Shown piece by piece: positions 1,335-43,221 of a DNA stretch of 64,000 bases (the stretch's first letter is position 1; every line of letters starts with the position of its first letter). The DNA is taken from NCBI RefSeq assembly GCF_000764655.1, contig NZ_JRGL01000020.1, positions 1 through 64,000 on the forward strand. Direction: 5' to 3'. The notes below the pieces were generated by a model. The model had not been told where the DNA came from, ran no database searches, and was given only the letters and a program-made list of their open reading frames with translations. Source of the stretch: Aeromonas aquatica (lineage in GTDB: Bacteria > Pseudomonadota > Gammaproteobacteria > Enterobacterales > Aeromonadaceae). The position numbers and the translations under genes were made by a program.

Positions 1335-1432
1335 TGGAGGCGGTGCTCCTTATCCGGCATCACTGTGATGTCAGCATTGACGGTGATGACGGTCTCGACC
1401 CGGAGGCTGGAGAGAGAGCCGTCGTCACTCAG
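1335..1432 (-). pseudogene. Diverged remnant of the 3' end of yeaD
   Basis: About 98 nt here align without gaps to the last part of the intact yeaD gene (about 1452-1549), at an offset of 117 nt. Shared blocks include GTGCTCCT, ATCCGGC, GTGATG, TCGAC and AGCCGTC. Translated on the minus strand, the remnant keeps the frame and reads VETVITV...MPDKEHRL where the gene reads VEAAITA...APDEEHSF. The substitutions are mostly conservative. The final codons and stop are replaced by the nadA terminator. It looks like the end of a second, diverged yeaD allele. Confidence 0.7.
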
Positions 1433-1435
1433 GGA

Positions 1436-2305
1436 TCAGATGATCACGGTAGAGAAGCTGTGCTCCTCATCCGGCGCTATGACTACTCCAGCCTCGGCCG
1501 TGATGGCGGCTTCGACACAGAGCATGGTGCGGTAGCCGTCATCGCTCATGTCGGCCATGGCGCTGGCGCCTTCCAGCCAGGGGGTCCAGACCACTATGCT
1601 GTCGTGGTTGCCGCTGACCACATGAGTGGCACGCTCCGCATCCTGAACAGTGACTCTGGGCTCTGGTTGCAGGTAGATGCGATCCAGGGCGCCAGAGAGC
1701 GTCAGAGCGCCCTGCTGCTGTGCTGGTTGGCCACCGGTCACCTTGTCCAGGTAAGGTGCGCCCAGGCCAGTCACGCTGACGGCTGCCGGGCTGCTTATCT
1801 GCAGATAGGTATGCAGGGCGGCGTTGTAGACGAGGGGGCTGTTGCCAGTGTTGCGGGTGGTCAGCACCAGTGACAACTCCTTGCCGATCAGCACGTCCAG
1901 CTCCAGCTCGAAGGCGTGAGGCCAGAGGGCACGGCTGGCGTCGGTGTCGCGCAGAGACAGATGGACGAGCGTGCCATCCTCGTGGTCGGAGACGCCATCC
2001 AGGGACCACAGTGTGGTGCGGGCGAAGCCATGGGCGGGTTTGCCGCTGCCAACGCGCGCGGGTGCGGGGCCAAACCAGGGCCAGCACAGGGGGATGCCAC
2101 CCCGGATGGGCTTGCTGCCGTCCAGCACGGCCTTGTCACTGAGCCAGAGAGAAGCCGGTTCACCATGGCGCTGATAGCTCAGCACATGGGCGCCAAACAG
2201 GCTGATCTCGGCCTTGGCATAGGCATTGTCGATGGTCAGCAGGGGCAGCCCTGTCTCGTTGTGGCTGAGGCTGCAGTGGGCTGTCAGAGTGCGTATGGGT
2301 TGCAT
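1436..2305 (-). CDS. yeaD: D-hexose-6-phosphate mutarotase (aldose 1-epimerase family)
   Basis: The 289-residue protein belongs to the YeaD group of galactose-mutarotase-fold enzymes, which interconvert alpha and beta anomers of glucose 6-phosphate in the cytoplasm. Typical segments are the GGIPLCWPWFGP motif and the HGFAR motif that carries an active-site His. The ATG at 2305 is chosen because AGGAG lies 6 nt ahead; an ATG eight codons earlier lacks this. As in E. coli, the gene lies directly downstream of gapA on the same strand. A hairpin between them suggests partial read-through or processing. A diverged duplicate of its 3' end lies downstream. Confidence 0.9.
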   Translation of the reverse strand: MQPIRTLTAHCSLSHNETGLPLLTIDNAYAKAEISLFGAHVLSYQRHGEPASLWLSDKAVLDGSKPIRGGIPLCWPWFGPAPARVGSGKPAHGFARTTLWSLDGVSDHEDGTLVHLSLRDTDASRALWPHAFELELDVLIGKELSLVLTTRNTGNSPLVYNAALHTYLQISSPAAVSVTGLGAPYLDKVTGGQPAQQQGALTLSGALDRIYLQPEPRVTVQDAERATHVVSGNHDSIVVWTPWLEGASAMADMSDDGYRTMLCVEAAITAEAGVVIAPDEEHSFSTVII

Positions 2306-2360
2306 GAAGGCTCCTGTGCTCGCGCACATTCAGAAAAGAGGGTTACAAGACTCAGAATAC

Positions 2361-2388
2361 AAAAAGGCGGCCAATGGCCGCCTTTTTT
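2361..2388 (-). terminator. Hairpin between gapA and yeaD
   Basis: AAAAAGGCGGCCA/TGGCCGCCTTTTT inverted repeat. It can terminate or attenuate gapA transcripts before yeaD. Confidence 0.8.
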
Positions 2389-2414
2389 CAAGCTACGCGA
2401 TTGCGCATCCCAAA

Positions 2415-3410
2415 TTACTTGGAGATGTGAGCGATCAGGTCCAGAACCTTGCTGGAGTAGCCCATTTCGTTGTCGTACCAAGATACAACTTTAACGAATT
2501 TGTCGTTCAGCGCGATACCAGCCTTGGCATCGAACACGGAAGTCTGACGCTCACCCAGGAAGTCAGTGGAGACCACTTGATCTTCGGTGTAGCCCAGCAC
2601 GCCCTTCATGGAACCTTCGGAGGCGGCTTTCATGGCTGCGCAGATTTCGGCGTAGGTGGCGGCTTTCTTCAGGTTGACGGTCAGGTCAACAACGGACACG
2701 TCCGGAGTCGGTACGCGGAAAGCCATGCCGGTCAGTTTGCCGTTCAGTTCCGGGATAACGACGCCAACAGCCTTGGCAGCACCGGTAGAGGACGGGATGA
2801 TGTTCTGAGCCGCACCGCGGCCACCGCGCCAGTCTTTGGCTGACGGACCATCAACGGTCTTCTGGGTAGCAGTGGTAGCGTGGACAGTGGTCATCAGGCC
2901 GGATTCGATACCGAAGGTATCGTTCAGAACCTTGGCGATCGGGGCCAGGCAGTTGGTGGTGCAGGAAGCGTTGGAAACGATGTCCTGGCCAGCGTAGGTA
3001 GAGTCGTTAACACCCATGACGAACATAGGGGTAGCGTCTTTGGACGGGCCGGTCAGTACGACTTTCTTGGCACCGGCAGCGATGTGCTTACGAGCAGTCG
3101 CGTCGTCCAGGAACAGACCGGTGGCTTCGGCAACAACGTCAACACCGATGGCATCCCACTTCAGGTTTGCCGGGTCACGTTCAGCGGTAACACGTACGGT
3201 TTTGCCGTTGACAACCAGGTTGCCGTCTTTGACTTCAACGGTGCCATTGAAGCGGCCGTGAGTGGAGTCGTACTTCAGCATGTAAGCCATGTAGTCAACG
3301 TCGATCAGGTCGTTGATGCCAACCACTTCGATGTCAGCACGCTCAGCGGCCAGACGGAAGACGAAACGGCCGATACGGCCAAAACCGTTAATACCTACTT
3401 TGATAGTCAT
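2415..3410 (-). CDS. gapA: Glyceraldehyde-3-phosphate dehydrogenase, type I
   Basis: This enzyme oxidises glyceraldehyde 3-phosphate to 1,3-bisphosphoglycerate with NAD in glycolysis. All 331 residues fit the classical GapA family: the N-terminal [10 protein letters not shown] dinucleotide-binding motif, the [12 protein letters not shown] active-site motif with nucleophile Cys150, and the C-terminal WYDNEMGYS. Codon use is strongly biased to optimal codons, as expected for a highly expressed gene. It has its own promoter containing a palindrome just upstream, and a hairpin separates it from yeaD downstream. The identification is secure. Confidence 0.98.
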
Positions 3411-3754
3411 ATTTGGTTACCTAACTGTTCAGTAGTCAAAGAAAATTCCGTTTGTAAATTTACTAGAACTCACCGGTGAGTCAACCAACAATCTGTCTGA
3501 AATTGCGCTATATCATGAAAAACTGTGAAATTTATTTTCGGTTTATGTAACTGACTACCAACTTTTGTCGAAAATGCCATCGGCTGGTTCTCGTCACAGA
3601 GATCAACAATAGTGCCTGCTCGGTCACACATCCAGCCGGGGAGATATGTAAAAATGTGCGCGGTTTAGCATGGCCAAAGAGCCACTGTTCAAGCACCACC
3701 CATAAAAATTAATCAAATAGTATAGATAGAATCCACAGCGGGAATTCTCAAACT
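3411..3754. other. Divergent intergenic region gapA/malQ
   Basis: This 344-bp AT-richer gap holds the gapA promoter on its left side and the malQ control region on its right. A GGGGAGATAT stretch near 3640 partly resembles a MalT box (consensus GGGGAKGAGG), but the match is weak. No small gene is apparent. Confidence 0.6.
3457..3484 (-). promoter_or_regulatory. Probable gapA promoter with palindrome in the spacer
   Basis: On the minus strand TTGACT (3484-3479) and TAAATT (3462-3457) are 16 nt apart. The spacer contains most of a perfect 14-bp palindrome, ACTCACCGGTGAGT (3468-3481), which also overlaps the -35 box. A repressor bound there would block polymerase. The regulator is unknown. Confidence 0.6.
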
Positions 3755-42018: not shown

Positions 42019-42944
42019 ATCGCACTGTCCGGCATCAGCGTCAGCACCATGCAGATTTCGCAGGCATCGTGGCCCGTGCTGCCGAGCGGCCCCGGCAGGT
42101 GCTCGAAGCCCAGCGACTCGTAGAGCGAGGTCGCCTCCCGCAAGACGTCGGTGGTTTCCAGATAGCAGCGCTGGTAGCCGAGCGCTCTCGCCTCGGCCAG
42201 CGCCTGCAGCACCAGCCGCCGTCCCAGCCCCAGACCGCGCAGTACAGGCAGGAAGTACATCTTCTGCAGCTCGCACACTTCGTTTTCCGCCCCCGCCAGC
42301 GGGGCTATGCCGCCGCCGCCGAGAATGGCGCCGTCCGGTCCCTCGATGACCCAATAGCGGCTGCGCTCACCCTGATAGGTTTCATGGAGAAAATCGAGGT
42401 TCGGATCCGCCACCCCGTAACCCTTGTCGGCGGTGAGGCCGTACTCGGCGGAGACGGCGCGCACCACGGCGGCGATATGGGGGTTATCGGCAGGAACGAT
42501 GGGACGGATCTGATAACCCTGCTGGCGGCGGGCCCGGGACAGGGCGCTGCGATACAGGCGCAGGCCGCTCCACAGCTGTTCGCACTCGGCGGGGCTGAGC
42601 TGGGCCAGCGCCAGCTCGGTGGCATTGTCCATCTCCTGATGCAGGGCCAGCAACTGAGCCTGGCCGGCGGCGGTGAGACGGGCCTCCTTGCTGCGCCCAT
42701 CGGAAGGGTGGGGGTGCCAGTCGATGAGGCCCCGTTCGACGAGGCGAGCCAGCGGGCGGCTGGCGTTGGACTTGTCGATGCGCAGGCGCTCGGCCAGCTG
42801 CTGGTTGGTGGCGGGGCCGTTCTCGAGTTCGATCAGCAGGTGAGCCTCGAGTGGGCTCAAGGTCAGGGCGCCGCACTGTTGGGAGAGCATACCGAGCTCG
42901 CGTACCAGCTCCCGTGACAGGGCGCGAAGGGGACGGGGATCCAT
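42015..42944 (-). CDS. MarR-type helix-turn-helix fused to GNAT acetyltransferase
   Basis: The 309-residue protein has a MarR winged-helix domain (about 1-140; [28 protein letters not shown] is the recognition region). A GNAT domain (about 145-305) follows, with the acetyl-CoA loop in [16 protein letters not shown]. Such fusions are known in bacteria, and a few act as regulators that sense or modify a small molecule. A 17-bp direct repeat just upstream is a probable operator for autoregulation. The downstream acyltransferase gene overlaps it by 4 nt. Confidence 0.88.
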
Positions 42945-42959
42945 CTGTCATTGTCCTTT

Positions 42960-43006
42960 TGGTTGTCATCAGCAACCAATATAACCAACTGGTTGTCATC
43001 AGCAAC
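42960..43006. promoter_or_regulatory. 17-bp direct repeat, probable MarR operator
   Basis: TGGTTGTCATCAGCAAC occurs at 42960-42976 and again at 42990-43006, exactly 30 nt apart. The first is flanked so as to give a GGTTG/CAACC palindrome. It lies 16 nt upstream of the MarR-GNAT start. Confidence 0.65.
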
Positions 43007-43061
43007 TGCTTTCGTCGGGCTGGGGTAGGGGTTATGGGGCAGGCGCGGGGTTGGCGGGCAC

Positions 43062-43086
43062 AAAAAAGGGCCCGGGAGTGGGGCCC
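43062..43086 (-). terminator. Terminator downstream of nemA
   Basis: On the minus strand GGGCCC-N7-GGGCCC followed by T6. It lies beyond the nemA remnant. Confidence 0.75.
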
Positions 43087-43141
43087 AAACATTGGAAACC
43101 CGCGCCGGGGCGCGGATCCCATCCTTGGCCAGTAAAAGAGC

Positions 43142-43221
43142 CGGTTAGACCCGCTCGGCCTTGCTATACCAACTCGGCCGGCATGGTGTCGGCACGGGGT
43201 GCCACAAGAAGCCCGGTCTTG
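43142..43221 (-). pseudogene. Diverged remnant of the 3' end of nemA
   Basis: At an offset of 58 nt from the intact end, about 40 nt repeat the last codons of nemA. On the minus strand the remnant ends ADTMPAELV-stop, the gene ADSMLAELV-stop. The codons for AELV and the stop differ only at synonymous sites (GCC GAG TTG GTA TAG against GCT GAG CTG GTT TAA). This is the pattern expected of a diverged functional homologue. Confidence 0.75.

Follow-up and report, generated by a model that had tools for sequence, protein, structure and literature searches.

Spare copies of gene ends beside intact Aeromonas genes: a probable origin in local tandem duplication across gene boundaries

Introduction

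Why should intact bacterial genes stand beside short, diverged copies of their own ends, and where did those copies come from? The question is raised by nine genes in the first 64,000 nucleotides (nt) of contig NZ_JRGL01000020.1 of Aeromonas aquatica (assembly GCF_000764655.1, 4.58 Mb in 171 contigs), a stretch that we call the window: four of them have a second copy of their start just upstream, and five a second copy of their end just downstream. A sequence-only reading of the window had taken many of these copies for scars of xenologous gene replacement, left when an incoming homologue landed beside the resident gene and all but one end of the loser was lost. In such an event the newcomer would be joined to the chromosome through homology on one side and by an illegitimate junction on the other, and the two copies would be diverged from birth. 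Overall, the analysis presented here makes it rather probable that the copies began as local head-to-tail duplications straddling gene boundaries and then evolved as small arrays in partial homogenisation with the gene, many of which several species have in common. Duplications of this sort are ordinary in kind; what is unusual is their frequency, their restriction to one genus among the samples, and their preference for gene boundaries.

With about 2% of gene ends carrying a spare neighbouring copy, Aeromonas offers a natural experiment in how short tandem duplications are born, how they survive and how they exchange sequence with live genes. Recombination should remove tandem repeats fast, and for repeats of 1 kb a survey of minisatellites cites a figure of about 10^-4 of cells (PMC2884548). 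Set against that expectation, the persistence of the Aeromonas copies across species, together with the absence of near-identical pairs, turns the fate of such repeats into an open question that can be tested. At a more practical level, the copies may lead to wrong calls of gene starts and, around gene boundaries, of insertions and deletions; they might also be of use as markers for typing. A literature search found no description of the pattern, as judged from titles and the openings of abstracts.

Results and Discussion

Frequency in Aeromonas and in other bacteria

Frequency was measured in two ways, with gene calls made for every genome, E. coli included, by one and the same simple script. 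The locus scan is a local self-comparison that records matches scoring at least 44 at offsets of 30-250, and its extragenic counts leave out loci that overlap tRNA genes (3 in the genus) and intragenic loci (5). The gene-end test aligns the 120 nt inside each gene end with the 200 nt outside it and takes dinucleotide-shuffled flanks as its control; the nine window cases were given 1000 such shuffles each, and genome-wide counts used a fixed score of 40, with shuffles drawn for one end in four.

The sequence-only reading had supposed that the pattern lies beyond chance and runs through the genome, and so it does. The locus scan finds 24 extragenic loci and one intragenic locus in 404 kb of this genome, and since 19 of the 24 fall in the 340 kb outside the window, the density is not an effect of where the earlier reading had looked. 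Nine Aeromonas samples together gave 55 loci in 1210 kb. The genus sample is in part syntenic with the window; stretches of five genomes (G009, G015, G023, G035 and G036) placed without regard to content gave 10 loci in 460 kb. Each species is represented by one genome, and orthologous loci from several species are non-independent. Beyond the genus, three other genera of the family, represented by five genomes of which one has a similar GC content, gave no loci in 400 kb, four other members of the class gave one in 400 kb, and E. coli K-12 gave two in 150 kb; all three of these loci are 99-100% identical and purely intergenic. Dinucleotide shuffles yielded no loci in any group. In the gene-end test, copies occur at 42 of 2051 ends in the nine Aeromonas samples (20 of 729 tested ends in this genome) and at none of 1565 ends in E. 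coli K-12 and the nine further genomes from the family and the class, while shuffled flanks gave none in 2550 trials for the genus and none in 1935 elsewhere. We infer that such duplications arise or persist more often in Aeromonas than in its sampled relatives. Densities are uneven, at 1 locus per 100 kb in G015, 1 in G035 and 5.9 in G000, so that the trait varies within the genus; the G015 and G035 samples (L117-L126) lie several-fold below G000, G009 and G017.

Decay of the copies

The copies change as noncoding DNA would. Differences between copy and gene were counted over 70 pairs, 44 at gene ends and 26 at gene starts, pairs with fewer than 20 coding nt being left out; they fall 146:134:299 on the three codon positions, close to the 1:1:2 that a constrained copy paired with a free one should give, and the same segments compared between species divide 22:12:66%. 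Sites can be polarised where the gene itself is in agreement with every one of at least four orthologues; among these, changes in the copy are found at 58 of 775, 59 of 878 and 27 of 368 for codon positions 1, 2 and 3, respectively, and 45 of the 51 gaps in copies shift the frame. Change that is flat over the three positions, combined with frame-shifting gaps, indicates that the copies are free of coding constraint. It is change in the gene, counting imports into it, that accounts for the excess at third positions.

These results speak against replacement scars in general, and they overturn the argument by which the sequence-only reading had arrived at them, namely that divergence respecting the codons is a sign of xenology. 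Its claim for four of the cases (NUDIX, SufR-like, nemA and NSS), that most differences are synonymous, likewise does not hold over the window, where the nine cases give 25 synonymous and 42 nonsynonymous differences (20:19:28 by codon position), with ratios of 3:1 for NUDIX, 3:2 for nemA, 5:7 for the SufR-like gene and 4:5 for the NSS-family gene. At the same time, the third-position share is by our estimate slightly above that of pure decay, a point on the side of the scars, since it leaves room for some exchange with foreign alleles.

Own gene or another species as source

If scars were the rule, the copies should resemble the genes of other species, and orthologues could be compared for 53 of the 69 located pairs. 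In 39 of the 53 pairs, third positions place the copy closer to its own gene than to the median of the other species, and in 7 they place it further away; at sites where own gene and other species differ it follows its own gene 289 to 106 (mean over species). Whole-segment identity gives a result that would favour scars, with the best match in another species for 31 pairs, in the own gene for 13 and a tie for 9; this outcome is explained by old copies being set against the best of many species, here up to 29. Among 28 arrays compared with sister species, a clear excess for the sister appears in only two (8:2 and 7:3), with a weak one at the NUDIX start of G000 (2:0). Thus, xenologous replacement is an unlikely explanation of the general case, because most copies are nearest their own gene at third positions, and the part of the idea that stands is that a few loci show foreign exchange. 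The alternative that the earlier reading had itself allowed, a tandem duplication over a gene boundary that leaves the gene intact, is the one that we favour.

Arrangement of the copies

Offsets run from 57 to 183 with a median of 92, and most loci consist of two copies at 70-95% identity. In 37 of the 70 pairs, same-strand copies abut head to tail or form arrays; the other 33 are in line, with a spacer of 11-119 nt between them. One might think here of a mobile or integrative element that inserts at gene ends, rebuilds them from a copy that it carries and has left only remnants, since a copied gene end is a hallmark of integration at such a site. Yet every locus copies its own gene, starts as well as ends are used, and the spacers are short; moreover, no motif common to unrelated loci was recognised among 6- to 8-mers in the noncoding parts of the 70 arrays, where the most enriched k-mers traced to orthologous arrays, and no element or remains of one were found between the copies, although the spacers were not searched against an element library. 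We consider an element very improbable.

The surroundings of the copies discriminate less well. Copies sit in native flank, and the outer flank strongly matches orthologous flanks in most loci, as expected of scars. The orthologous flank in some other species was matched better than most mismatched controls at 15 of the 22 spaced loci and at 15 of the 19 that form arrays, but several of the flank-matching species have the array in common, and the test therefore cannot separate the models; the proposal that the spacer is donor flank was dropped accordingly. Reading the spacer as a plain continuation of the duplicated unit gained no support from the spacer tests either, though single loci suggest it (G036:a:6326 and G014:a:20257).

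Local tandem duplication does not account easily for everything, and several observations weigh against it. Spacers often look unrelated to both neighbours, which would suit scars: at z above 3, the outer flank is alike in 2 and the gene interior in 0, a combined test reaches z above 2 in only 3 of 32, and a plain tandem unit is consequently not established in the 33 spaced pairs. Next, a gene boundary runs through 51 of the genus loci, and 4 lie wholly in intergenic DNA, where random gene-sparing placement predicts 44% intergenic. This excess is greater than neutral placement allows, and while detection somewhat favours boundary copies, one partner being constrained, in our judgement that bias is not large enough for the excess seen. 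A constant birth of identical copies should also leave some near-identical pairs, and none of the 55 loci has a best pair with at least 98% identity (one pair is identical over its coding part alone, 41 nt), which is again what diverged birth would give. Finally, against sister species alone, the copy follows its own gene only 62 to 46; taken with the overall preference for the own gene, this suggests that most duplications are local and roughly as old as the splits between sister species.

The duplication model can be outlined as follows. A tandem duplication with a period of mostly 60-130 base pairs (bp) that spans a gene boundary would leave a complete gene and a spare copy of its end, and the spare copy would decay as noncoding DNA. 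The pair might then act as a small array, in which slippage or unequal exchange amplifies the copies anew and recombination removes part of their differences from the gene; now and then, sequence would also pass between species. Such homogenisation and exchange may be what keeps copies recognisable beyond the life of a species. As the source we think error-prone break repair or template switching likeliest, sometimes leaving short filler. More tentatively, one may envisage a process specific to the genus that copies gene ends in particular and reuses the same ends across many species; it might be, for example, end-joining of DNA that the cell has taken up, or break repair or template switching tied to gene boundaries. 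If true, a few hundred genes per genome would have a spare end copy able to recombine with the gene, extrapolating from the 24 loci in 404 kb.

Sharing and exchange among species

Many of the arrays are shared. There are 41 boundary groups, of which 25 have orthologues in other genomes and 16 have copies in at least two species; within these 16, sites that group the copies by species number 54.3 and sites that group them by copy 19.2, with a noise level of 3.6. Grouping by species fits old, partly homogenised arrays, or repeated duplication at the same ends. For 84 gene ends and 84 gene starts, each with at least five genomes, a copy is present in at least one species at 16 and 8, respectively, and in at least two species at 8 and 6. 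G000 and G011 have different numbers of copies at C22:45377 and C22:57955, and the SufR start has one to three or more copies among relatives. An array upstream of a gene at G000:C22:36847-37200 (L071) has about 4.6 copies of a 76-nt unit at 95% identity, where several relatives are single-copy.

Three cases come closest to the idea of the sequence-only reading. The first is the NUDIX 3' end of G023. Arrays of this gene end, with a unit of about 58-63 nt, occur in G022, G023, G024, G009 and G017 (L036, L042, L045, L172 and L173), and array copies of one species match gene tails of another. The G023 gene is 97-100% identical to that of G022 up to the last block and 84% identical there, whereas the G023 end copy is 95% identical to the G022 gene end and 85% to its own gene (8 to 2 informative sites), as a scar would be. 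In the genome of the window (12165-12605) the 3' array is absent, and the protein tail differs, being read into what is flank in the relatives; among named genomes, the protein has its nearest relatives in Aeromonas species, with A. eucrenophila at the head. The second case is the ybhA start of G018 and G022, where two N-terminal variants are seen by eye in an order of gene and copy opposite to that of G000, G011 and G017. The third is the duplication at G000:C22:31240, whose 11-nt spacer is common to G023, yet G011, the nearest relative of G000, is single-copy. Separately, the contig start at a NUDIX array in G018 (C27, L168) reads as an inverted self-copy, probably an assembly artefact.

Such cases also bear on the notion that the copies are kept for a function, those upstream as leader reading frames or ribosome decoys and those downstream as RNA elements or as cassettes that donate gene ends. 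Start copies often take in a Shine-Dalgarno-like stretch, the same gene ends are used repeatedly, and NUDIX tails have been swapped between gene and array in relatives. Against this stand the lack of codon constraint and the mostly frame-shifting gaps described above. Were end donation general, array ends might vary more in C-terminal length; they do not (0.08 in 16 against 0.12 in 68, p 0.73), and the NUDIX tail exchange is a single case. We therefore hold retention for function to be improbable.

Comparison with known systems

In form, the loci resemble bacterial minisatellites and variable-number tandem repeat loci, in which units of tens to about 100 bp follow one another head to tail in numbers that vary between relatives. 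They differ in that the repeated unit is an end of the adjacent gene, lies on the gene boundary and is frequent in one genus, and whereas the survey cited above required at least 90% identity, the Aeromonas loci are mostly two copies below or little above that level, as given earlier. Dispersed intergenic repeats, such as repetitive extragenic palindromes and bacterial interspersed mosaic elements (REP/BIME), are likewise short and close to gene ends, but have one sequence across loci, where here each locus copies its own gene. Dispersed repeats of the MITE kind are set apart on the same ground.

Two processes described elsewhere are nearer in mechanism. Homology-facilitated illegitimate recombination has been proposed for arrays of orphan immunity genes of the type VI secretion system in Vibrio cholerae, in an account that calls the process rare (PMC5361080). 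As described there, part of the resident gene can stay behind next to a homologue that has come in, as in a few Aeromonas loci; in contrast, most Aeromonas copies are nearest their own gene and lack coding constraint. In Salmonella, spontaneous duplications with microhomology at the junction are reported within cultures, where junction reads detect them (PMC3411829). Local duplication as raw material is common to both, but the Aeromonas copies are about 100 bp long, fixed in the genomes of species, and old.

The nine copies in the window

Self-comparison of the window finds repeats where the sequence-only reading had put them for msrB, NUDIX, SufR-like, ybhA, NSS copy 2, yeaD and viaA, and in the gene-end alignments eight of the nine copies beat all 1000 of their shuffled flanks. 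The fixed score of 40 is reached by only four (yeaD, msrB, SufR-like and NSS).

Four copies are of gene starts. On the plus strand, the msrB start together with its upstream 25 nt is repeated at 10374..10440 (partner 10463-10529, offset 89, 91% over 67 nt; MsrB by TIGR00357), and the ybhA-like start at 18488..18528 (partner 18565-18605, offset 77, 88% over 41 nt), the latter having 76/77-nt copies in eight further species. On the minus strand lie the NUDIX start copy, which includes a Shine-Dalgarno-like stretch, at 12672..12713 (partner 12577-12618, offset 95, 86% over 42 nt; Pfam NUDIX), and the SufR-like start copy at 16905..17006, which abuts its partner at 16804-16905 (offset 101, 78% over 105 columns; TIGR02702 below its cut-off).

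Five are of gene ends. The end of a yeaD-like gene of the aldose epimerase family (Pfam Aldose_epim) is copied on the minus strand at 1337..1431 (partner 1454-1548, offset 117, 74% over 92 nt). Two further minus-strand copies are short, that of the CurA-like end at 12803..12831 (partner 12847-12875, 23 of 29 aligned nt) and that of the nemA-like end at 43165..43194 (partner 43223-43252, offset 58, 30 aligned nt); the same CurA gene end has clearer copies in the relatives G017 and G023, and the same nemA gene end has clearer copies and longer arrays in G009 and G011. On the plus strand, the viaA end and adjoining sequence recur as two short copies at 35844..35911 (partner 35800-35837, offsets 44 and 51; ViaA by NF008230). 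Here the repeat itself is found, but shuffles reach the score of the coding part alone in 11 of 1000, so that this case is marginal. Also on the plus strand is the end copy of the second NSS-family gene at 24394..24450 (partner 24300-24356, offset 94, 84% over 57 nt; Pfam SNF), the gene being one of two adjacent members of the sodium:neurotransmitter symporter family that, by Pfam, stand in tandem at 21301-24355.

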